NCBI GenBank assembly: GCA_950295325.1
Contig: OX485803.1
Coordinates: forward strand, 5,704,001-5,768,000
Length of the DNA: 64,000 bases
Direction: 5' to 3'
From: Polytrichum commune
Lineage: Eukaryota; Streptophyta; Polytrichopsida; Polytrichales; Polytrichaceae
The notes below the pieces were generated by a model. That model was given only the letters and a program-made list of their open reading frames with translations, had not been told where the DNA came from and made no database searches. The position numbers and the translations under genes are program-made. This document shows, piece after piece, positions 28,223 through 64,000 of the stretch (within the stretch, counting starts at the first letter, position 1; each line of letters opens with the position of its first letter).

Positions 28223-29404
28223 TTATGTTTCCTGGTTCAAAATTTGAATCGTGTCCGATCCATTCTCATGATTTCTCCATAATTCTAGTACTTCATGACA
28301 CCACGTTCGACTCTTGCACATACAACCAATCCAGTTTTTTATCTCCATATATTCAAAAGAAATTGCATATTTTCTAAGTCGGTTGCATATGCCACATTTT
28401 TGTCCGCACCCAATGCAGTGTCTTGTGTGTGTTGCACGAGATTTTGGCGAACAACAACACTCCAATTTTAAATCCAATATATCTTCTTCGTGTGGCGGCA
28501 TCACTTGTGGTTCATGTTGACAGTTGTCGGGTCCCACACATAATCTCCATCGCTGCGACATTGGCATGCCTAGTGTTTGATACATACTGATTAATTGTTT
28601 CCATGACGTCGGTATTGACATACCACCCAGGTCGCCATTCCAATCTTTCCCTTTCAATGTCAGAAGTTCTCCCAACAATAGTTTTTCGACATCCAAACAA
28701 CCCTCATCATTTTCCACACGTTTTCCAAACGACCCAAATAAAAGTTCCAAAATTTCACTCTGCAATGCCATCGACATGTGACTTTTATCAAAAATTGATT
28801 GCAATTCTATGGTGCGAGTCAACAATGCCTCATCAACTGTAGGGCTTCTTTCGTTGTCCAAAATCCTTGTTTGTACATATGCTTCACCATGTGTTTCACA
28901 TGCGACAGCCTCCTCATTAGCGTCAACACATGCTGCATTAGAATTTTGTGTATTCTCGATGTTGTCCCCATTGTCCCTCGCATTGTCCACGGATACCGGA
29001 ATTCTATCATGCGTACCAAACATTCTATCTTCATTTTCCACAGTTACGTTTCCCTCACCGCTTGTATTTCCTTCCACATATGATGCAGGGCCTGAAAGGC
29101 CAGTTCTCAGTAACTGCGAACGTAGATGCTTTGCGACCGTAGCTCTACTTCTCCATTTTCTGCCTTTACAAATATGGCACATACAAAGAACACATTCTTC
29201 ATCCCCTTCTCTGCTTGTCCCTGCATTCTGCACAGAGGAACCTTGCCCATGGAGAGTACATCTAATACATGAATGCACTTTGCCTATTGCGGATAGGCTC
29301 TGATGATTGAGCCAAGTTCTACGAGAAACCCAACTATAACCTTCAGGCAAGTGTCCACATTTATATGAACACGAGCACCGCATGCGTGCATTTGGAGGCC
29401 TCAT
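28223..29404 (-). CDS. Transposon N-terminal ORF with cysteine clusters, 393 aa
   Basis: It starts at an ATG at 29404. The N-terminus is rich in paired Cys/His (RCSCSYKCGH; CVLCMCHICKGRKW with RATVAKHL behind it, which looks like a zinc finger). Near residues 320-360 a second dense cluster follows: ECCCSPKSRATHTRHCIGCG, then CGICNRL and CMCKSRTWC. Cysteine-rich domains before the catalytic region are usual in KDZ-type and some plant transposases and probably bind the transposon ends; that is inference. The frame ends at a stop just before the next exon (about 28187), so the last few codons may really be intron. Confidence 0.65.
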   Translation of the reverse strand: MRPPNARMRCSCSYKCGHLPEGYSWVSRRTWLNHQSLSAIGKVHSCIRCTLHGQGSSVQNAGTSREGDEECVLCMCHICKGRKWRSRATVAKHLRSQLLRTGLSGPASYVEGNTSGEGNVTVENEDRMFGTHDRIPVSVDNARDNGDNIENTQNSNAACVDANEEAVACETHGEAYVQTRILDNERSPTVDEALLTRTIELQSIFDKSHMSMALQSEILELLFGSFGKRVENDEGCLDVEKLLLGELLTLKGKDWNGDLGGMSIPTSWKQLISMYQTLGMPMSQRWRLCVGPDNCQHEPQVMPPHEEDILDLKLECCCSPKSRATHTRHCIGCGQKCGICNRLRKYAISFEYMEIKNWIGCMCKSRTWCHEVLELWRNHENGSDTIQILNQET

Positions 29405-29915
29405 TTTGCTTCCTAATCATATGTGGAATATCAAAAGAACATCTGCATAGACACCAAAAACCCTACATTTCTAGCCCCCTTCATCTGCCCCGTTTGTAAT
29501 ATCATATATTCGGGCATGGAAAAGGCTTGCAGTCTTCTTTTGTTCGTTCTGTTGTGTGCTGTGCTTCTGTGGCCCACGAAAAGTGTTGCATTCTCCACAA
29601 CACCACACGCTCATATGTGTTTGTGCAATACTTTACCACGCAATCACGGTGGAGTATAAACTACGGCATCCAAGGTCCGCCGACAAAAACACCTGAATTG
29701 CATACATGGCTAAAACTTGGCAAAGCATGCCTGGATGTCTGCAGTATGCAATTTTATGCTTGCAACGGTGGAGGCTAAATTGAAACAACACCGATGCATT
29801 TCATAATGAGCCTCTTCGTGTGCAATCTGGAATACACATATGCGCAAGATCATGTGACCTGCTCTCTTCCAAACCCCGGAAATGCTTTATAAATTAAAAA
29901 GATTGATCTGTAATA
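29405..29915. other. No gene seen
   Basis: About 500 bases between the transposon gene and the next minus-strand gene. I see no coding signal or repeat, only short frames without motifs. Confidence 0.4.
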
Positions 29916-38489: not shown

Positions 38490-39296
38490 AGGATATTTAA
38501 ATAAAAAACAGTTAGAATGAAAGATCGTAATGAAAAATATGGCAAATTGTATTTGCGAGACTACAAGCATAGCGTGGCTTAACGTGTACACTTAAAGAAC
38601 ATGAGGATTGTTAGGGAATTGTGATTTAATCCTACGGAACCGAAGGCGTATAGATTTTTAAAGAGCAACGTGAAAAACAACAAAAAACTTCAAAGGGAGG
38701 TGAAAGAATACATAAAAAAGAAGTTGGATGCAGAACCTTCAGCATTGTATCGTTATCACCTACATTGTAATCGAAGCGTTATGACGTTGTCATGGGAGGT
38801 CGAAGAAATCTATGAGTATTTCAAACAGATGAAAGCTGACTATTTAAAGAAAATAAGCAAGGCGCACTTGTTAACTTAGAGGGTAAAAGAACCAATGAGC
38901 GACATTTTGTCAGCGATGAGAATATGGCAGTACACGAAAATGAGAACAGAGTTTGTGAGGAAAATAATAGAGATTCCGATGAAAATGGTGGCCACGGTTA
39001 CTGCCTGAATGTGCAAGGGCCTTGCCATGAATCCAGAGTCCAACTTCTGTTGGAAAGAGAAGACAGCGGGGAGATCTAGGTATTGCGGCGGGTGGAGGAG
39101 GAGCGGAACGGGCGTTTGCATGAAGTTTTGGCTGTTATAGACGACTATTATATGGAAAACATAGCACACACAAATGAGGAAGGAGTGAAACCCCACGATA
39201 AGAAGTCGCAAAGTTCGAGAATTGCACAGACATTATGGAGGGAATAGAGCATGCTGTGGAAGAGTATTTTGCGTCACATGGAGAATGCGGACATAC
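38490..39296 (+). other. Short lysine/glutamate-rich frames on the left flank of the retrotransposon
   Basis: A 69-codon frame at 38670-38879 (QREVKEYIKKKLDAEPSALY) and further open pieces up to the insertion point. One frame reads across the reconstructed empty site into the right flank. I do not recognise the protein; it may be an older transposon. Confidence 0.3.
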
Positions 39297-39727
39297 TGTC
39301 ACGTGAGGTGACATCGAGGGCTAAGTTACGTCAATTTAGGAGTAAATGGACTCCAGTAGGAGTCCATGTGTGTTGGGATGAATAACGGACTCCATTGGGA
39401 GTCCTAGTTAGTTGTTCATCCACTCCATAGATGAACTCCACATAGGATTGGGGTTGTATGGAGAGGAAGGCCTCTTGACTTGCCATTGTTGTCAAGTCAA
39501 GTCTTGTGAGTGTGTTTTGAGAGAGAGAGAGCTTGTTGTTGCTTTCTCATGGCTATGGTGTAGTAGATTACGAGTAAAGCCTTTGCATTCTTTCTCCACC
39601 ACTTGCACTCTTGGATTCTCCCTTCGTGGAGTGAGAGATAGCTTGACTCTTGTGTGTGAATTTTAGAGTTTCTTAAGTTTTGTAAGGAGACATTTTAGTT
39701 TCTTAAGCTTGGAGAGAGAAACCCTCA
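39297..39727 (+). repeat. Left LTR core (431 bp)
   Basis: It starts TGTCACGTGAGG and ends AAACCCTCA. It contains the palindromic G-box CACGTG at its very start, a GAGAGAGAGAG run and a TTTTGTAAGGAG segment. If the full LTR is 538 bp (see the permutation finding), this copy lacks the first 107 bases. Confidence 0.9.
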
Positions 39728-40983
39728 TACTTGACAACAATGGCTCAAATTCTTCATTTTTGGTTGTATTTCTGAGCTAGAATGGCCCAGTAATGAGAAC
39801 AAATGAGTGATACAAGTGTTTGAAAGCTTAGTTTGTCATTTCTTGCAACCCTCAAGAAGATTTTGAGAAAAATCTTCCCATTTTTCTTTTGTTGTCTCTT
39901 TGTATTTTCTTCAATTGTTGATGGTTGAATCTTGAGATTCCATTTAGTCTCAAGATTCTCAAGTCACATTTTCTTGCTTGCAAATTGTGAAAGCAAAGTT
40001 TAATTCAAATACAAACACAAACTAAAATTAATATCCAATTTGTTTTTAATTTTGGTTGAGCTCCGGACGGATCCGGAGCTCACCAGACCCTCTTGGAGCT
40101 CCTGGAGCTCCAATTCTGGGAGGACCGGGGGCGGGCGGGTGTCGGCCGGGCCCCACGGGCGAGCGGGCGCCAGCCAGGCCCTGGCTGGCAGGCAGGTAAG
40201 CCCACATTTAAGGCTGGCTTAAGGCTGGCTTAAGGTTTGTTTTTTTGTTTTTTTTGTTTGTTTTTTTGTTTTTTTGTTTGGTTTTTTTGTTTTTTTTTAA
40301 AATAAAAACAATTATTTTTTACTTTTACTTTTTATTTTCACATTTTTAATTTCAACTTTCAAATTTGGCATTCGAATTTCACAAACTTTGAGGTTCAAAT
40401 TTGGGGGCATACTAGCTCCGATTGGAGTGAAATTTGAGCCTATCTTGTGTGAAATTTGCCAAGGAATCCAATGGTGTAATTGGATTGTTGATTAAAATTC
40501 AAAATCATTGCTGAAATTGCTAATTTCAACGCTGATTTTTGTTTTTGGTAGCAAATTAACTCCGATTGGAGTGAAATTTGAGCCTATTTTGTGTGAAATT
40601 TGCCAAGGAATCCAATGGTGTAATTGGATTGTTGATTGGAATTCAAAATCATTGCTGAAATTATTAATTTCAACGCTGATTTTTGTTTTTGGGAGCAAAT
40701 TAACTCCGAACGGAGTGAAATTTGAGCCTAATTTGTGTGAAATCTTCCTAGGAGTCCATTGGTGCACTTAGTTTGTTGATTGGAGTCCATAATCACCTTG
40801 GAAATGAGCCTTTTCAACGCTGATTTTTCATTTTAATTACCAATCTCAAACCTTTGCACAATTTTGGAATTCTGGGGGCATAAACACTTGGCATTTGGCA
40901 AGGGATTGCCATTTAGATAGCCCGCAACAGGTGCAAGTTGCCATTACCTTGTAGATAGTTGCAGGTACTCAAGTGATTATTTT
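39728..40983 (+). other. Retrotransposon leader with tandem repeats and T-rich tract
   Basis: There is no ORF. A T-rich tract (T7-9 blocks separated by G) occupies about 40232-40305. From about 40395 to 40800 a unit of about 147 bases is repeated three times, each marked by TCCGATTGGAGTGAAATTTG or a variant (at about 40419, 40561, 40706) and AATTTCAACGCTGATTTTTG. No convincing tRNA primer-binding site follows the LTR; the nearest TGG is at 39741. Confidence 0.7.
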
Positions 40984-42573
40984 ATGGTGCAAACTAGGAG
41001 CCGATATTATCGATCTCCATCACCAGATTACTTGGAGGACGTGCATACGACAAATCTTGAGCCAGAGGTAGATACCAACGAGGCTTTTGAGCCTATTTCG
41101 GCGTTGGACACTACTAGTAGGCTTCGGATTTGGAGTGTCGGCACGTTCGACGAAATGGAGGACGATCGCCACAATTCAGTGCGTGATCGGTTTTCAGGTC
41201 GAGCTGGGGGCATTTCCTTGCCCGATTGGAAACTCCGGTTTCGTACCTGGATTAAGGAGAAACGCCAAAGGTCTTCCAATTTCAATGATTGGTATGCCTT
41301 TGAACTTCTGCCTCAACATTTGGAGTATGAGGCACTCCAAACTTATGAACGCTGGACAGAGGGTCATCAGCGACAACTTCGGGAGGTGGAGCAGTATTGG
41401 GAGGCTCGGGTTGAGCTCATTTCAGCCCTTAAGGATGGGGCGGTTGCTACCTTAGCTCCACCCACCTTAAAGGAGGAGGAATCGCCGGCGGAGTCTAAGG
41501 ACACGGAACTGGCACTTGGGCCAATGGTGGCTAGCAGTAGCACGGCAACCCTTTCACGGGTGGCACGTGCTACACAGGCAGCATTGACGGCCGTTGGTCC
41601 ACCACCTCCGTTTAATCCCCTTATTGAATTTGTCGCACATTTGGAAGTGAAGTATGGTGGGTTTCGGCGAGACCAGATGCAGCGCATCCAGGATTTCCGC
41701 CGAGAGAAGGATGATACTCCACGGACCATGTATACGCGACTCGCGCGATTTGCTGTGGAGTTGGGAGGTGTTTTTGCTGAGAGTCAGCTTGTTAAAATGT
41801 TTTTGTCTAAGATTGACAAGCGACTACTTGAGTTGGCATCACCTCGGATTATCCTCGACTACGAGGGCCGAGCTACGCTTGCACAAGCGTTTGCCGTGGT
41901 TGAGAGATGTGATCGGGCTCTTTGCCAACATGATGCCACGGATATGGTATCTTGGATGACAGAGAGTCCGAAACCAAGAATAATTGTCACAGCTACTAGT
42001 AGTTTAGCTGAGACTCAACCCGTCAAGGAGTAAAAGATTTTGCATTGTTGGGGTTGTGGAGAAGCTGGTCATTCGAAGAATGATCCCAATTGTCCTAAGA
42101 AGAAGAAAACTCAGCCTTTGGGAAAATTAAAACAAAAGATGGAACCAGTAAAGGCAGGGGACAATTCTAAGAAGAGACAATTGAAATGTAACCATTGTGG
42201 TGGCACTAATCACGATGTGGATCATTATTTCCAACTTCATCCTGAGATGCGGCCTGCCAGTTATGTCACTAGAAAGTCTCCAAGGGAGCAGAGTCTTGAG
42301 GCTAAGGTGGCAGAGCTTGAGCAAAAGCTCAAATCTTCTGCATCTTTTGCTCAAATTTCTGCGCCGCATGTGGGTGGTGGCACCTCGGGTTCGAACATGT
42401 ATATGTTTGGAGTAGCTGGAGAGGTGGTGGCGGCGGCTTCTACTCGCTCACAAACATTGGCAGATGCGGTGGCTTCCACGAGTGGTGGTAGCAACGAGGT
42501 GCTACATCCTCGCCATGCCGGACCAGCTGATCAAATTGGTCAAGCCCGTTACCTCTTTCATTTGAATTGGTAG
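40984..42573 (+). pseudogene. gag: gag (capsid plus zinc knuckle), one in-frame TAA
   Basis: It begins at ATG 40984. A retrotransposon gag domain lies at about residues 200-335 (FVAHLEVKYGGFRRDQMQRI, RTMYTRLARFAVELGG). An in-frame TAA at 42031 separates it from the nucleocapsid part, which continues in the same frame with the zinc knuckle CWGCGEAGHSKNDPNC. A second Cys/His motif, CNHCGGTNH, and a short coiled-coil-like EAKVAELEQKLKSS follow. It ends at TAG 42571-42573, overlapping the start of the protease frame, which is in the -1 register. The TAA could derive from a CAA by C-to-T change. Confidence 0.8.
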
Positions 42574-43757
42574 ACACCATTGTTGTTGGGGCTAAAAACC
42601 CTGTACCTTTGAGAGATGGGGATTTCATCTCGAAGGATGTTACGCAGGCATTGGCATATAAAATTCTCCATATGCCAATTTTCTCGGGTTCGGAGTTTAT
42701 GGCTTCGGATTTCAAGCCTGCTGCAGTTTTTCATTTAGCTGGGAGAATGTTAGAAGGTAAGGCGGATTTGCCATCCCTTCAAGTATCCCAAGTTGTGGTT
42801 GACGTACCTGTGGCTGAGGAGGTGGAGGACTTAGCCAGTTTGCGAGCGAGTCTTGCGGATGCGGCGATCATTGCTTTTGGTAAGCAAACTGATATTCCTC
42901 CAGCATCAATTTCAGCAGTGGATACGTCATTTGCGAATTATGCGTCGGGAGCGGCATATCTTGCAGACATTTCTGCAAGGCCTGCTCGCGAACGGCATAA
43001 TTTGCAACCTGGAGTTGTACGGCTGATGAACGACAAATCTTTGTTTGTCGTTTCATGCACGGATATGCCCACTATCCGTGCTACACCACTGAGAGTTATG
43101 ATGGATTCCGGTGCTCAACCGGTTATGATTGGCAAAGGACTTGCTGACAGTCTTGGATTGACGCCAGCAAGCTTGGATCCTTGTCCATTCACTATTGTGA
43201 CTTCAGTAGGGGGCACTGAACGTGCAACAGGTTACACCAAGGCACCTCTACGTTTGATTTTTCATGTGGAGGCAGGGCCTACTTACACTCATTTGTCAAT
43301 GAAATGTGTTGTTACTAATGCTACCAACTATGATATACTTGTTGGTCAGCAAGCTCTTTATCCACTTGGCTTTGGTTTGGATAATTGGACGGAAGAGGCA
43401 TGGATTAGACCGGGATGGTCCACTGGAGATAGTAGGAAGGTATTTATTCCCGTCACATTTGCAGCCACTGCTATGACTATGGTTGCGGAGGCAATGTTTG
43501 GTTGCAGCGGTTCAGTTGCAGATTTGCCTTGTGCTCCAGTTTTATTGGAGGAAACAATGGACTACACTTGTAATGCGGCAGAACAACAATTTTTACCATC
43601 TTTTCAAATTCCTGCTCGACATTTCAAGGATCCACCTCCACCATGGCGAACTCCTAAGAAGTTATCCGACCATTGTCAACACATTGTAGCGGATTTGGAG
43701 CTTGGAGAGGCACCTCCAACTTCATCCTCATTTTCTTTTGCTCAACCCATTCGTTGA
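42567..43757 (+). CDS. Retroviral-type aspartic protease region of pol
   Basis: This frame is -1 relative to gag and has no clear ATG, so it is probably made by frameshifting. The protease core lies at about residues 175-270: the active-site triad is in RVMMDSGAQPVMIGKGLADS and the second half contains YDILVGQQALYPLGF. About 170 residues of unassigned sequence precede it. It closes with a TGA at 43755; the same frame continues without further stop straight into the methyltransferase, so the TGA (a possible CGA derivative) looks like a mutation and PR and methyltransferase were one protein. Confidence 0.8.
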   Translation: MVDTIVVGAKNPVPLRDGDFISKDVTQALAYKILHMPIFSGSEFMASDFKPAAVFHLAGRMLEGKADLPSLQVSQVVVDVPVAEEVEDLASLRASLADAAIIAFGKQTDIPPASISAVDTSFANYASGAAYLADISARPARERHNLQPGVVRLMNDKSLFVVSCTDMPTIRATPLRVMMDSGAQPVMIGKGLADSLGLTPASLDPCPFTIVTSVGGTERATGYTKAPLRLIFHVEAGPTYTHLSMKCVVTNATNYDILVGQQALYPLGFGLDNWTEEAWIRPGWSTGDSRKVFIPVTFAATAMTMVAEAMFGCSGSVADLPCAPVLLEETMDYTCNAAEQQFLPSFQIPARHFKDPPPPWRTPKKLSDHCQHIVADLELGEAPPTSSSFSFAQPIR

Positions 43758-44788
43758 CAACCATTACCTGAAGGTATTGTCCTTGTGGAGATCTTTGGAG
43801 GCATTGGCACAGGTTTGGCGGCAGTGTTGGAAGCTGGAATTACAGTTTGGCGATATATTCATGTGGACAATGGGTATGTAGCCAACAGAGCCGTCCGACA
43901 CCACATCCAACAATTGTTGTTGAGATACCCCGCACAAGTGTCAGCCTCTGCCATTCATGGATGTTGTGGTCAACTTCCTCAAGATGTCACTATGATTAGT
44001 GATGAGGATTTGAGAAGGTTGGGCCACGTGAATTTGATTATTGCAGGATGGCCTTGTCAAGGCCATTCGCGGGCAGAAACTGGCCAGGGATTGGATGATC
44101 CTAGGTCTAGTTTGTTTGCGGATTTGATGCGATTGACGTAATGGTGGTTTACCCACCAATCAACTCCGCCAGGGTACATTTTCGAAATGTACCATTATTG
44201 GGTGATACCCGGCACAAAGTGGTGAAGGATGGTGAGTACATTAACCAAATTCTGGGTACTCCAACATTTCTGGATGTTGCATCTTTGGGATCCTTTGCTC
44301 ATCGGCCTCGTTGGTTTTGGACCAACTTGGTATCACCTCGGGTGCTTTCAGCGGCGATTGCCCCCATTCCCCGCCTTATGGATCGCAAGGTGGATGACAT
44401 TTTAGATAAGCATCGTGTTTCCTTGGCAGTTACCAAGAATGACACCTTGCCATTTGCATTAATTAACAAGGTGGGAATTCTGAGAGGTGCACTACATACT
44501 TTTGTGACATATCCACAGTCTTTTACATTTCGATCTCGTGGACTTGGTATGGTTTGGGATTCAAAATTCCAAACTTATGAGGAGCCTACGGCAGATGAGC
44601 GGGAACGCGCCATGGATTTTTTTATAGGTACCACGGCTGCTCACGGGCTTCAGGAAGGTCAGAGACGTTTCCTATTGGGGCAAGCTATGGATCTTAATAG
44701 CATTGTGTGGATAATTGAAATTTGTCTTGCTGCTCAACAACGTATGGATGACCAATTGCTTACTATGAGGGCAGAGAACAATGGTTAG
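43758..44788 (+). pseudogene. Cytosine-5 DNA methyltransferase domain inside the retrotransposon
   Basis: C5-methyltransferase motifs appear in canonical order. Motif I is VEIFGGIGTGLAAVLEAG (S-adenosylmethionine loop). Motif IV with the catalytic cysteine is IAGWPCQGHSRAETGQ. Downstream come SLGSFAHRPRWFWTN, a target-recognition-like stretch, and a motif X-like QRRFLLGQAMDLNSIVWI near the C-terminus. The domain sits between protease and reverse transcriptase. It is broken by TAA at 44139 and by a one-base deletion near 44186 that falls on the ENV motif (VI); the remainder reads on from 44141 in another frame to TAG at 44786. The domain resembles DNMT3-like enzymes in organisation, but I cannot assign the subfamily without a tree. 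Confidence 0.85.
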
Positions 44789-45079
44789 GGGGCAATGGAG
44801 CCGCAATCCAAGGATTACATTGAGGTCAATGACATCGAGGGATTATTTCCTTTGAAACTTCATGTTGCGGAAGAGCTTCGAGCCCAACGTGTTTTTTCGG
44901 CTTTGGCCTTAGAGTTTGGGAAGTTGGAGGCCCATAAAATGTTTCCACTTCTATTTCTTGGTGATACTTCATATGTGGGTAGTTATTTAGCTACACAAAC
45001 TGATTGTAGTGGAGAGGATACGCATTTGGATTCAAGTGCAGATGATGGGGGCAAAGGTGTTGCCCTCTCCACGGACTAG
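44789..45079 (+). pseudogene. Linker between methyltransferase and reverse transcriptase
   Basis: It continues in the same frame as the distal methyltransferase after TAG 44786. It reads 94 codons (IEVNDIEGLFPLKLHVAEEL) with no recognised domain and stops at 45077, just before the reverse-transcriptase frame. It probably belonged to one continuous pol. Confidence 0.5.
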
Positions 45080-48000
45080 CAATCACAGTGGCACCAAGTG
45101 GCAATCCTTCTATGAAGAAGAAAACCACGGAGTTTGACGATTGGCCAATTGAAGTGGGGCCAAAGCTTACTGGTGCCGAAGCACGAAAGATACGGGCATT
45201 TATTCGCTCTTACCGTAATTGTTTTGCCTGTAGTCTTCATGATCTTGAAGGATATAAAGGTAAACCTGTTCGTATTCAACTCGAGGACGACCACCCTATT
45301 TTCAGACAGCCGTACAGACTTAGTGCATCTGAAAGGTTGGGTGTTCAAACTCGATGTCAAGAGTTATTGGCAGCGGAATTGATTGAACTCTCAAATGGAG
45401 AGTATGCTTGTGCCACGGTTATGCTATCAAAGAAGGATATCTTTGGCAACTGGACGGAAAAACGGATGTGTGGTGATTATCGTCCAGTCAACCGCAAGAC
45501 CAAGTCGGATCGATATCCAATGTCGATGCCGGAGGAGTTGTTTGATGCACTGGGATTTTCTAGAATCTTCAGCACTCTGGATTTGAGGTCTGGTTATCAC
45601 CAATTACCTTTGTTGTTGGGTGATCGGGTGAAGACCGCATTTTGGGGAATTGATAAAGATGGCAAGGATCAACTTTATCATTGGAAATTTCTGCCATTTG
45701 GTCTCAAGAATGCACCAGCTGAATTTCAACGGGTGATGGACCAATTATTGGCTGGTTTACCGTTTGCTAGATGTTACATTGATGATGTTATCATCTTTAG
45801 TAATAGTCCACATGATCATGTGAGACATTTGCGAGCGGTATTTGAACGACTTCAACGGTGGGGACTCCGTTTACATCATGGAAAATGTAAGTTTTTCCAT
45901 GATCAATTGCCCTATTTAGGCCACATGATTGTTCCTGGTGGTCTTGGTGTACAACAAGCGAAGGTGGATGCTTTGCACAAAATTCCCGCACCTAGTGATG
46001 TATCACGGCTTCGTGCATTTCTAGGATTGGCAAATTATTATAGGAGGTTTGTCAAAAATTTTAGTTTGATTGCCAAACCTCTTACCATTCTCACGGGAAA
46101 AGACCAACCATGGATTTGGAGTCGGGAACAACAACAGGCATTTGATACATTGAAGCAGAGACTCGGTTCAGCGCCAGTGCTTCGACGCCCGGATGTGTCT
46201 AGAGCTTTTCAATTGCACACGGATTGGAGTGCAGTGGGATTGGGAGCGGTATTGATACAGAAATATGAAGAGGGAAAGGAATATGTGGTGGCTTATGCAT
46301 CTAGAAGTAATAATAGTGCTGAATCTAATTATTCTTCTTATGAAGGCGAGGCCTTGGCGGCCGTTTGGGCCATTGCACATTTTCGACCTTATTTGTATGG
46401 GCAGAAGTTTATTTTGGTGACTGATCATCAGCCTTTAAAATGGCTTATGGAATCAGATAAGCTCACCGGAAAACTTGCTAGGTGGACATTATTACTTCAT
46501 GAATATGATTTTGAAGTTGTTCACCGAGCAGGAATTGCCAACTTGGATGCAGACGGATTGTCTCGCAATCCAAGTCCTTCAGATGAGGATTTAACTGGAG
46601 CCAGGTGGCATGGAGATTGTGATCGTGAGGCAGTACCGGGTTGGCATGCTGCCACATATCTCACAATGATGTCGGGATTGGCTGCTGAGATCCTTGTAGA
46701 AGAACAAGATGAGGAGGTTGATAAATCTCTCGTTGTTAGTGATGTGTGGGAAGACCAAGCAGTCTTGCACAAACTTCAACAAGGGATATTTCCTCTTGGA
46801 CTATCTGCTATGGAGCGAGATAGAGTTAGTCACCGGATAACAAGGTTTCGTTGGGCAAACAGCTTGTTATTTTGTGTGTGGCCGAACGGAACGAGGCGCA
46901 TCGTTCCAAGGCCAGATCAAAGAGCTTCTTTGGTGCGGCAAGTGTACGAGGAGCTTGGACATTTTGGAGTGCGAAGGACGCACTCTATATTGCGCAACCA
47001 ATATTGGTGGACTGGTATGTATCAACAAGTTGCCACTTATGTTTCTCGGTGTGAAGTATGTGACCGGGTCAGGTCAAGTTTTAATACTTTGTCACCTCAA
47101 CTTCAGCCTTTACCTATAATGGGCTTGGGATATCGTTGGTCTTTGGATTTTGCCGGATCGCTTACTATCACTCCACGTGGTTCCAAGTATGTGCTTGTGA
47201 TGGTGGAGCATTTTAGTAAGTGGATTGAACTCGTGGCTCTTCTCCAAAATTCCTCAGAATTGGCGGCTATGGCATTTCTTGATCGAGTTTTGGCACGGTT
47301 TGGAGCACCTGCAGAGGTGTTGACGGATCAAGGGAGAGAATTCCTTGGATCTTTCGAGGCTTTGTGTACCAAGGCTTTGATTGATCATCGGACAACTTCC
47401 AGAGATCACCCTGAGGCAGATGACTTAGCTGAATGAGTTGTTCAGACGGTTAAGCGCGGTTTGCGCAAGTATGGATTGCTTCATGGCAACCATCGCGATT
47501 GGGACTTGATGTTACCATGGATAGCAATGGGTTATCGTTTCAGCAGGCAAGCATCTTTGGCATCCTATAGTCCTTACCAACTCTTGTATGGACGGGAACC
47601 AATTTTACCTAGCTCGGTGCGAAAGAAATTGGCTCCCGTGGTAAACTTGGATGATCCAGATGTTTGGGCTCAATGTCTTCATGACCGAGCAACGTTCTTC
47701 CAAAAGGCCATGCCTATGGCTATGGAGAACTTAAATATTGCTCAACATCGTGATACATTACGGTATGCCCGGATCCGCAGTAGAGCTTATCGACCTCAGG
47801 TTCATAGATTTTCCAAGGGGGATTATGTTTACTTGCAACGGGAGGCGCCTACGACATTGGATGTCAAGGCTGGGCGTACGATTTTGCGGGTAAAAGATGT
47901 CTTGCCAAGTGGTATATTATTGCTTGAAGGTAAGGATGGACGGGAATGTCGTGAGCATTCAAAGAATTGTGCTCCATGTCACCTTCCCATCGACGGCTCT

Positions 48001-48216
48001 GTGCATCCCGAGTTGGCGGTTGTACCACAGGGTCTGCCTTGTTATGTTTGTGGAGAGAAGAAAGGAGCTGCAACAATGTTATTGTGCGACCAATGTCAAC
48101 GTGGATGGCACATGGCATGTTTGACACCTCCCCTTTTTAGTCTTCCTTCTGGCAATTGGGTTTGTCCTCGTTGTCGGAAAGCCTCTCATTCCGTGGCCGT
48201 TAATGGTCATGATTGA
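45080..48216 (+). pseudogene. pol: Reverse transcriptase, RNase H, integrase, PHD finger (one in-frame TGA)
   Basis: The RT has MCGDYRPVN, STLDLRSGYHQL, FGLKNAPAEFQRVMD and the catalytic CYIDDVIIFSN. RNase H has LHTDWSAVGLGAVL, YEGEALAAVW and TDHQPLKWL. Integrase has the zinc motif (GHFGVRRTH, CEVC) and the D-D-E core (WSLDFAG, LTDQGREFLGSF, HPEADDLAE). A TGA at 47434 follows that last Glu; the frame is open again from there to 48216. The C-terminal 50 residues form a PHD finger, C4HC3: CYVC, then CDQCQRGWHMAC, then CPRC. The frame has no clear ATG and is most likely part of a larger polyprotein. The TGA could come from CGA. Confidence 0.88.
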
Positions 48217-48542
48217 GAATTTTGTGGATGTTTACTACATGTTTTAGTGGTGAAGTTGTTATTTAGTTGGTTGGAAATTTTATGGAATTAAGACCACATT
48301 GAAAGAGTTATCCAAGAATTCAACATAAATTGTTGAAGGCGATTAAGGATGGGGCTCACATTACACCCAGCCTACAGTTCTTGGATTACTTTGTCAATCA
48401 TGAGTTTAATTCCTTCGATTACTACTACCCAATTAAATATGTATAGATGTAGCAACAACTTCATCATGTTCAACAACTCTACCGATGAGTGTGTTTGTTC
48501 CTAGCCGATTGGAGGGGCTCCTTATCTGCTAGTGGGGGCACT
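48217..48542 (+). other. Non-coding tail of the retrotransposon with polypurine tract
   Basis: No ORF. It ends with the purine-rich AGTGGGGGCA at about 48530-48539, the natural priming site for plus-strand synthesis directly before the LTR. Confidence 0.55.
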
Positions 48543-49080
48543 TGAAGAGGTGGTTGTTTAGCATTTTAGTTTGCTATTTTATTTTGCTAATTGATGTTGA
48601 CAACGACACTCGATCTGTTGTGTTTAACGATCTTAGTTTACACGACAGCTGTCACGTGAGGTGACATCGGGGGCTAAGTTACGTCAATTTAGGAGTAAAT
48701 GGACTCCATTAGGAGTCCATATGTGTTGGAATGAATAACGGACTCCATTGGGAGTCCTAGTTAGTTGTTCATCCACTCCATAGATGAACTCCACATAGGA
48801 TTGGGGTTGTATGGAGAGGAAGGCCTCTTGACTTGCCATTGTTGTCAAGTCAAGTCTTGTGAGTGTGTTTTGAGAGAGAGAGAGCTTGTTGTTGTTTTCT
48901 CATGGCTATGGTGTAGTAGATTATGAGTAAAGCCTTTGCATTCTTTCTCCACCACTTGCACTCTTGGATTCTCCCTTCGTGGAGTGAGAGATAGCTTGAC
49001 TCTTGTGTGTGAATTTTAGAGTTTCTTAAGTTTTGTAAGGAGACATTTTAGTTTCTTAAGCTTGGAGAGAGAAACCCTCA
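48543..49080 (+). repeat. Right LTR, full-length reading (538 bp)
   Basis: Read as one LTR it starts TGAAGAGGTGG directly behind the purine-rich tract AGTGGGGGCA at about 48530-48539, which would be the polypurine tract, and ends CCCTCA. The part 48650-49080 is the 431-base core shared with the left end. The first 105 bases followed by GC form the segment missing at the left. Confidence 0.65.
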
Positions 49081-49188
49081 TCTTAAAGAGGTGGTTGTTT
49101 AGCATTTTAGTTTGCTATTTTATTTTGCTAATTGATGTTGACAACGACACTCGATCTGTTGTGTTTAACGATCTTAGTTTACACGACA
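49081..49188 (+). repeat. Extra copy of the LTR's first 105 bases behind the right LTR
   Basis: From 'aagaggtggttg' to 'acacgaca' this is identical to 48546-48647. It is joined to CCCTCA through TCTTA and ends directly at the target duplication ATAC. This is the sequence expected if the LTR-LTR junction of a circle lies here. Confidence 0.8.
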
Positions 49189-49192
49189 ATAC

Positions 49193-61720: not shown

Positions 61721-64000
61721 TTACCCATCTCCATCTTCCGCTTCATATCCATTCTCGGCGTCATTTTCCGCAGCTGCAATACGTGCCAAGTTGTCTTTGG
61801 CAAAATCTATATGTTTTTGGGGGATGGTCATTGCTTCTGTGTTGGAACCTTTGCGCGGCTTCCAAGCACAAAGTATAGTATCCGTGTTTATCCAAACCGG
61901 TGTGTACGCTGAGTCCACTGTCCACTTAAAATTCTTTTTGGTGTCCCAACCTAAATAAGTGCGGAGCACGTTGTGGTCTTTAGTGCTTGGACGACAATAT
62001 TCCACCTCAATTTGACGAAAGTTGGGGCTAGTTCGAACAAAATTGGGTGAAGACAATGCTTTTACCAACCAAATTGGCTTGGGATGCTCCTCATCCCCAG
62101 CTCGTACGAGGACCAAATACCCTTCATGGCAATCAACACCTACACGAAACGACGGTGCCGGTCGATTGCGGGCAGGGCCAACGTAATGCTCGTCCATTGC
62201 GAACTCTTCACGAACGTCTCCATTGCTGAAAAACATAGTATCGGACTCGACAACCGTCAAACGACTTTGTGGCCAAAATCCTTGTGTCAAAGTCGTACGG
62301 GTGTCGCCACCAAGTGTCATCAAGGCTGAGCGAATGCGATCCCAATACGCGATCAACGGTTCATGGGTATCTCTAACACGTCTTGTGATGTCCTCCTCGC
62401 ACAACTCTTTCCAATATTCAATGAATCCGGATATGCCTTTGATGATTTCCGGCCCATTCCTCATGGGTTCGGGTTTGCAAGGCTTTGGTTCCCCATCCGG
62501 GACCAAACATTTCCCATCATTGTCTTGACGCCATACGAGTATACCATCATCCGGGCCCCAATTAGGAGATGTGCACAAAAGCTTGAATTGCATGGCCGGG
62601 AGACCATCGTCCCTCATATAAAATCGGAATTGTTGTGCTTTGGTATGCCCCACCAAACGGTCCCCTCCCTTCAACATGTATGGCTTGATGAAGGCCTTGA
62701 AATTTGGTACTTCCTCAATCAAGTGCGGAATTACTGGCATATGGTCCAAATCCATATACGATTTCATAAGAAGAGGTATGGTTGGAAAATCTTCTTCATG
62801 CAACTTCATGCTCCACCGTCCGAATGATGCATCAATGTCGTCGTGTGTATGTCCCACCATCAAGAAAGACACAAACACCTCCTTGAAGATTCCTTTCGCC
62901 ACGAGCAATGACCAAAAACAAAATACGTATCGACATTTGTTGTCCTTCGCACAATTATCAAGTTGAACGTGGAGAGTTGGAGGCAATGGTTTTGCACAAA
63001 TGGGCTCTCCGGGTGGTTCTGGCAATGACGACATACAAACCTCCTTCCCCAAAAGCACTGCCTCATAAAGGGATGTGGTTCCACAACCATCAAAAAGTGC
63101 ACGGGAAGAATGTACCGGTGGCTTCTCAAGATCGCGCAACAGTTTTGCAAATGAACCCACCGTGTGGTTAGCATCCCCAGGGTAAAAATCCAAACCATAA
63201 TGGGCATACTTTACGTCCCCATGGCCGTGGGCAATCATACCTGGAAAAAACAAACGATGCGTGACCAAAATAATCAAATAACCACTAAACGGATGTATGG
63301 AGTTGGACATTTGCCAAACACACCCAAGAAAATTGGATAGACTTTAAACACGTAGTTGTGATTTCATACAAACCTGTGACAGCTACGGGCAACTTGAAGA
63401 GACCATCCGTGGCCTTTATTTTGCGTGCATAACAAGGGCATGCGGTCTTGGCGTGGTCCATTTTATCATGGATGACTGTTAGAACTTCTGTGGGCCTCAT
63501 TATGGATAGAGCACGATTCTTATAGTAATCTTGACGGTGTGCCTCTTGATTGTTGACATGTTCAATATATTTTTTCTGGTGTCTGGAATGAGATTCAGTG
63601 CCTATGGGGTGGGCGTCTCGAAGACCTTTGTATTTTTCACACGTCGTACATCTAGCGAACTTGTCCCCGGGTCTTTTCAGAATGTATTCCGCAAACTGCT
63701 GGTTTTTAATCACACTCAACTTGGACAAAGAAATGGGCCCACATCCCGCTATGCGACCCACTTCATTGATGTCCGTTAAGATGTTCTTCCATTTTGTGCC
63801 CGTGGGCAACACCATTTGAACAACCTTCTCCCCTGACGACAATGTCCTCGTCTTGTGGGGCATTGCATCGGCCAATGGCACTATGATGGTGGATAGTGTC
63901 GCGGACGCTTGCAATGTAGCCTCCCTAGGTTTCTTTGTGCCCGAGTTGCCATGAAATCGAGAGCGGCGACCCAACGATGAATATTTTCGAAACCTATAAA
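61721..64000 (-). CDS. DUF7869-type putative transposase gene, 5' end outside the window
   Basis: Two minus-strand exons: from the right edge (open past 64000) to 63374, and 63240 down to the stop at 61721. They join in phase across a 133-base GT-AG intron (T-G-M-I-A-H-G at the junction). The upstream exon has a Cys-containing stretch (FARCTTCEKYKGLRDAHP; KTACPCYARKI). The second has VQLDNCAKDNKCRYVFCFWS and VGHTHDDIDASFGRWSMKL, the hallmarks of the widespread DUF7869 family, which is thought to be transposon-derived with a D...HTHxDID catalytic-type core. The C-terminal 250 residues are not assigned and end in an acidic tail (NDAENGYEAEDGDG). The 529-residue second exon has no stop, so the gene may be intact. 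Confidence 0.75.

Follow-up and report, generated by a model that had tools for sequence, protein, structure and literature searches.

The window analysed here is a 64,000-nucleotide stretch of the Polytrichum commune genome (contig OX485803.1, positions 5,704,001 to 5,768,000 of the forward strand). It contains what sequence comparison identifies as a decayed copy from a Ty3/gypsy retrotransposon family that was active recently, and positions 43758-44788 (+ strand) encode a predicted C5-cytosine DNA methyltransferase between the protease (PR) and the reverse transcriptase (RT) of this element. By sequence, the gene order of the family is Gag, protease, cytosine-5 methyltransferase, leaky UAG, RT, RNase H (RH), integrase (IN) and PHD finger. 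As to function, the balance inclines, with real reserve, towards an enzyme made at the level of Gag and carried in the particle, which would methylate a circle-like complementary DNA (cDNA) before or at integration.

The methyltransferase domain of the window copy

The Pfam family DNA_methylase (PF00145) matches positions 43758-44141 with E = 2.5e-7 and 30.9 bits, against a cut-off of 22, while the NCBIfam dcm match (E = 6.8e-8, 32.5 bits) lies far below its cut-off of 100.65. Motif I (FGGIGTG) and the catalytic PCQ of motif IV are present, and HRPRW (motif VIII) and an end resembling motifs IX and X follow in a second frame. Read through with X at the breaks, the domain aligns to DNMT3A across motifs I to VIII (E = 2e-6). 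The second half, 44111-44788, is assigned to the methyltransferase because it aligns to residues 143-328 of the intact domain of a relative, L001 (see below), and to intact sibling copies. A preliminary description of this DNA had proposed a cytosine-5 methyltransferase inside a gypsy element, and had named a profile search against DNA_methylase as the way to check it; the significant match, with the neighbours as claimed, bears the proposal out. Its statement that the enzyme shares the frame of the protease apart from one TGA holds in part. That TGA lies at 43755-43757, but a TAA at 44139, a frame change near 44190 and a TAG at 44786 are also present, so that the protease frame is common to only about the first 140 residues of the domain. 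The copy is likewise interrupted in gag and integrase. The TAG (44786-44788) is common to the window copy and one other, L009; some defective copies may have descended from one another or been mobilised in trans.

The 127-residue open frame is within chance, since 100 Markov resamples of 12 kb yielded + strand frames of up to 218 residues. The case for a methyltransferase is carried by the profile match and the intact siblings, not by the length of the open frame. A chance or pseudo-match was ruled out by the PF00145 match in the window together with matches in 14 of 14 aligned open domains of the family (best E = 8.8e-14).

A fixed part of the family

The 408-Mb assembly that holds the window was searched for further copies. 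Among the best 123 of 353 PF00145 candidates that were scored, each with E < 1e-8, 18 lie within stop-free frames of 1356-1386 residues, and at least one is a host gene, a DRM methyltransferase (L070); the sequence was inspected at 26 further places among the 123. From the opposite side, the best 57 of 3783 RT candidates were scored (94-100% identity), and a methyltransferase lies just upstream at 54 of them: 27 with a listed methyltransferase 0.9-1.6 kb upstream, the window copy, and 26 of the 29 places read directly. The RT ranking favours the closest copies, and the proportion does not speak to more distant gypsy lineages of the genome. At the other three places there was no methyltransferase match within a 401-bp piece; of these pieces, two have matches in other repeats or genomic stretches and one has none in the sequences compared, and they are therefore read as nested or truncated copies. 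Many copies in the genome are young, with repeats 99.4-100% identical in the six pairs examined.

In a scan of prokaryote genome contigs a single relative was found, L001 (CADCWO010000201.1), with 71% identity over query residues 1-126. Its open frames encode gag-PR-methyltransferase, in two pieces at opposite ends of the contig, and RT-RH-IN-PHD. The contig is titled as part of a cyanobacterial bin; judged by this content, L001 must be eukaryotic in origin. It is 9285 bp long and begins and ends with the same 127 bases, as a circular assembly would. A circular-looking eukaryotic retrotransposon in a cyanobacterial metagenome bin could be a binning error or an extrachromosomal circle. Scans of viral contigs with the methyltransferase piece and with RT gave no relative, and a scan with the domain alignment gave one distant relative with 34% identity. 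Among phage records 452 had matches, all below 60% identity.

Could the domain instead be a host gene inserted once into the window copy, or a dead passenger there? The stop, the frame change and the further breaks of this copy are what such an accident might leave. The siblings and L001 carry the domain at the same place, however, often open and under purifying selection, and the idea can practically be dismissed. The preliminary description had itself named sister copies lacking the segment as the finding that would expose a one-off insertion; the siblings (54 of 57 scored RT places) and L001 refute that insertion. The methyltransferase is thus, by comparison of copies, a fixed and conserved part of the family.

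Conservation and selection

Selection was examined over 328 codons in 21 open genome copies and L001. The genome copies come from 28 loci (L002-L029), from which L004 was dropped as the same place as L011, and L003 and L010 (one place), L002, L005, L006 and L007 were removed because stops or frame changes interrupt their domains. The genome copies form two subfamilies, of 12 and 9 members, with about 64% protein identity between them, and the window copy falls in subfamily I (95.6-97.0% DNA identity to its members). The ratio of nonsynonymous to synonymous divergence (dN/dS) is 0.23 in 27 pairs at dS 0.1-0.3, 0.57-0.65 in 75 young pairs, and about 0.12 in 96 pairs across subfamilies, where dS is near saturation; dS was undefined in 12 of the 210 genome pairs. 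Between L001 and the genome copies dN is 0.21-0.29 and synonymous sites are saturated. Such a pattern would arise from selection on active copies followed by decay of the inserted ones, and the older divergences show, at the level of codons, purifying selection.

For alignment, 14 of the 22 open sequences were used (13 genome copies and L001), close copies being left out and L005 and L006 excluded. PCQ (motif IV), ENV (motif VI) and HRPRW are invariant in all 14. This invariance of the catalytic PCQ and of ENV argues against a purely structural part for the protein in the particle. Such a non-catalytic role, or the methylation of RNA, would sit well with the second half of the domain (44111-44788), which lacks a significant match outside the family, with 0 matches in PDB; RNA methylation has also been suggested for enzymes of the long interspersed nuclear element (LINE) type (PMC5890265). 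Taken together, the RNA-directed or structural role appears very unlikely.

Singleton changes in the copies are skewed. In subfamily I (11 copies) there are 85 C>T changes on 1076 C/G sites against 14 T>C changes on 1240 A/T sites, and in subfamily II (8 copies) 164 on 1202 against 43 on 1101. The excess spans CG, CHG and CHH contexts and is compatible with methylated copies; a general mutation bias could give the same. It is also what would be expected of DNA methylated in the germline if the enzyme served self-limitation, methylating integrated copies or the nearby host genome and thereby lowering transcription, sparing the host and keeping the lineage alive. A slowing of transposition has been offered as an option (PMC5890265). 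Silent transposons, however, are methylated by host enzymes anyway, so that the signature does not single out the enzyme of the element, and selection for self-restraint is hard to maintain inside a multicopy family. Self-limitation is therefore regarded as improbable, and methylation of the element's own cDNA is preferred to it.

Kind and source of the enzyme

A profile of the 14 domains finds in PDB DNMT3A (5.8e-14), tobacco DRM (5.6e-7), HaeIII (1.4e-6) and HhaI (1.1e-5). Profile positions 8-200 are colinear with DNMT3A over motifs I to VIII, that is, in unrearranged order, and the DNMT3A match at motifs IX-X is merely suggestive (a stretch of -3.8 bits). The host DRM of the same genome (L070), also a plant C5 methyltransferase, shares 25-29% identity with the element enzyme and is rearranged, its ENV part lying upstream of motif I. 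With its canonical motif order the element enzyme is therefore not a DRM. In a blastp search with L001 the scores were 52-65 bits for four phage enzymes, 58 for an enzyme on a viral contig, 53 for a DNMT3A fragment and 38 for the host DRM. A tree of 12 sequences places the phage, viral-contig, DNMT3A and DRM enzymes all outside the element clade without singling out a sister group. The enzyme may have come from a host DNMT3 or from a phage or bacterial enzyme.

Predicted expression through a leaky stop codon

Upstream of the methyltransferase, the window copy has an untranslated leader with three tandem 144-bp repeats (40400-40834, + strand), an interrupted gag region (40921-42573, +) with a CCHC knuckle at about 42046-42093 and homology to the open frame of L001, and a protease region (42531-43757, +; Asp_protease_2 E = 7.4e-5, gag-asp_proteas E = 2e-4, both below cut-off) that ends at the in-frame TGA. 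Between Gag-PR-methyltransferase and RT lies UAG-CAA-UCA (45077-45085, +), a stop context of the CARYYA type. The same kind of site follows the methyltransferase in L001 and in 20 of the 20 genome copies that reach it, as TAG and then CAATCA, CAACCA or CAATTA; the 20 remain from 24 loci after removal of L005, L006 and L009, which stop earlier, and of the duplicate L004. The frame after the TAG is open to the end of the sequence examined (at least 200 residues) in 16 of the 20 and broken earlier in 4. UAG-CARYYA is the type I readthrough signal of tobamoviruses (PMC5382211). Given this context, Gag-PR-methyltransferase is read as the main product and RT-integrase as its extension by readthrough, and the methyltransferase should be made in Gag-like amounts.

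The place of the enzyme on the Gag side, after the protease and before the leaky stop, suits a particle enzyme acting on cDNA. It would equally suit an enzyme that shields the cDNA against nucleases, deaminases or DNA sensors of the host, with no mimicry of silent chromatin. We know of no restriction of retrotransposon cDNA in plants by a nuclease, deaminase or sensor, and on this ground simple protection looks decidedly improbable, although protection against deamination has been suggested (PMC5890265).

RT, RNase H and the integrase zinc finger and core occupy 45086-47436 (+; RVT_1 9e-30, RT_RNaseH 5e-37, Integrase_H2C2 6e-16, rve 1e-12). The order PR-RT-RH-IN and the integrase core place the element in Ty3/gypsy, with the protease just short of its cut-off. 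The remaining integrase frame (47437-48216, +) ends in a PHD finger at 48040-48174 (PF00628, E = 3.4e-11), the best PDB matches of which are PHD fingers. It is kept in 10 of 10 copies inspected and in L001. No PHD-bearing gypsy integrase was named in the titles and abstract openings covered by the literature search.

Termini and integration

The ends of the element do not follow the usual plan. In the window copy a split direct repeat A1 (39297-39727, +; beginning TGTCACG, 98.6% identical to A2) forms the 5' terminus, and B1 (48541-48647, +; 99% identical to B2), A2 (48650-49080, +) and B2 (49082-49188, +; ending GACA) lie on the right, giving A-body-B-A-B. The target-site duplication ATAC flanks the whole at 39293-39296 and 49189-49192. 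Among 20 further open copies the long form occurs in 16 and the short form A-body-B in four, a ratio from copies picked for an open domain and not from a random sample. All 21 places are thus of one form or the other and none has ordinary long terminal repeats (LTRs) at both ends. An ordinary LTR element was ruled out, the apparent 5' LTR being without B and the 3' end having an extra B. The outer ends read TGTC...GACA, and the 4-bp target duplication is exact at 20 of the 21 places, with one mismatch in L008. The short-form copies (L014, L023, L025, L029) have open methyltransferases and exact target duplications with no A2 or B2, and would be missed by finders that need terminal repeats. In L016 the A repeat is partly duplicated internally (131 bp), and since both ends of the element show this duplication, it was copied through reverse transcription.

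A G-rich tract directly upstream of B1 (48531-48540, +), found likewise in 6 other copies inspected, is a candidate polypurine tract. The repeat unit for reverse transcription is accordingly B-A, whereas integration uses the start of A and the end of B. B1 and A2 meet in the palindrome GACA-GC-TGTC (48644-48653), also present in L001, and retroviral integrase cleaves palindromic junctions of two-LTR circles. The termini point to integration opened at a circle-like B/A junction, with a circular cDNA suggested by the repeat geometry. A one-repeat circle opened at B/A may account for the short form, as may a later B1 x B2 deletion. The arrangement of A and B is that of split direct repeats (PMC4157794). 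None of the 8 open reading frames scanned matched a tyrosine recombinase, and an integrase core is present.

A proposed function

Why would an element keep a methyltransferase of this kind? In the explanation that is, on present evidence, somewhat favoured, the enzyme, made in Gag amounts, would enter the particle. After reverse transcription the cDNA would take a circle-like form that the integrase opens at the B/A junction, and the enzyme would methylate cytosines of the element DNA before or at integration. The newcomer would thereby resemble silent host DNA and not naked foreign DNA, and the role of the PHD finger would be to tether insertion to particular chromatin. As a precedent, PMC5890265 describes retrotransposon DNMTs that methylate CG sites de novo, although the LINE-type enzyme in that work gave no DNA methylation in yeast.

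Several observations weigh against this explanation. Retrotransposons that lack a methyltransferase manage without one (PMC5890265). Motif IV is PCQ in 14 of 14 domains and PCN in DNMT3A, tobacco DRM and the host DRM, and L001 scores 61-65 bits with three of the four phage enzymes, higher than with the DNMT3A fragment. Positions 44111-44788 on their own gave no Pfam, NCBIfam or PDB match, a single-sequence fold of the L001 domain was uninformative (predicted local distance difference test, pLDDT, 34), and the protease match is weak, just below the Pfam cut-off. The circle is read from repeat geometry alone, the short form could have arisen by later deletion (B1 x B2) and not by replication, and inspection by eye found no tRNA primer site.

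A wider proposal can be put forward tentatively. A gypsy lineage with an integrase may have adopted the lifestyle of DIRS elements, with a circle opened at the palindromic B/A junction and marked by a methyltransferase that is packaged at Gag level through the leaky UAG; methyltransferases would recur in circle-forming retroelements because long-lived free circles need a mark. If true, the recurrence would cover DIRS elements (with adenine or cytosine enzymes), the Klebsormidium gypsy element and the window family. The proposal is still regarded as doubtful.

Other observations on the window and assembly

Two further frames on the - strand of the window, 61721-63343 and 28223-29416, have matches to DUF7869 (4e-40) and, weakly and below cut-off, to Transposase-associated, and are probably other transposons. 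DNA 66% identical to the first of them lies upstream of one RT copy (L091). A host gene frame at 15932-16747 matches DUF7733 (6e-73), a plant family. With its plant-type rearrangement the host DRM points to a streptophyte, and a land plant is the likely host; the seven large scaffolds of the assembly would suit some mosses. Among four small contigs of the assembly that were sampled, two are likely contaminants: judged by eye, C9 resembles fungal-type mitochondrial DNA with an intron endonuclease, and C10 resembles bacterial DNA of 66% GC.

Relation to known elements and significance

DIRS elements combine circle-style repeats with a DIRS reverse transcriptase and a tyrosine recombinase. The window family has a DDE-type integrase and 4-bp target duplications, unlike the Symbiodinium element SymbioDIRS-Dnmt3. 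That element resembles the family as a retrotransposon with a C5 methyltransferase (PMC5890265). PAT-type DIRS elements share the A1-B1-A2-B2 split direct repeats, and some DIRS elements encode a methyltransferase (PMC4157794); they differ in having a tyrosine recombinase and no integrase, and an unrelated enzyme of adenine type (PMC5890265, PMC6338049). The closest known case, compared here by its description, is KnitGypsy-Dnmt3 of the charophyte Klebsormidium nitens (de Mendoza et al., 2018; PMC5890265). The precedent that the preliminary description had named, of retrotransposon methyltransferases including one in Klebsormidium, is thus correct. Like the window family, KnitGypsy-Dnmt3 joins gypsy domains and a C5 methyltransferase of unrearranged motif order in a polyprotein, under purifying selection, and its repeats are arranged as in DIRS elements (PMC5890265, legend of Figure 4). 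The words readthrough, circular, split direct and PHD have no match in the main text of that paper, so that under those words it describes neither the leaky UAG nor the PHD finger nor the short A-body-B form. The window family, as its sequence is read here, has features beyond this first case as described in that text.

Among plant elements, a Ty3/gypsy element of orchids with an AlkB demethylase is comparable as a plant gypsy element with a stable extra enzyme that modifies nucleic acids, and differs in that its enzyme removes N6-methyladenosine (m6A) from RNA (PMC9289625). That paper screened 121 angiosperm genomes, and the terms DNA methylase, cytosine and PHD do not occur in its main text; methyltransferase, methylase and PHD are likewise absent from the main text of a study of Physcomitrium transposons (PMC7466625). 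No report of a land-plant methyltransferase retrotransposon came up among the titles and abstract openings searched, in open papers, and such transposons have been stated to be absent from land plants such as tracheophytes (PMC6338049). If true, the land-plant host of the window family would amend that statement.

The elements described here are, by the agreement of their copies, a real family: gypsy elements with a methyltransferase and circle-style termini, recently active and under selection. Cytosine methylation is the means by which plants silence retrotransposons, and here an element of the kind normally silenced in this way would itself encode a DNA-methylating enzyme. Since purifying selection maintains the methyltransferase, the family must benefit from having one, and the many young copies make the reason for keeping it directly testable. 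The anatomy of the family would offer a natural case in which an integrase element, circle-style termini and a Gag-level accessory enzyme come together.
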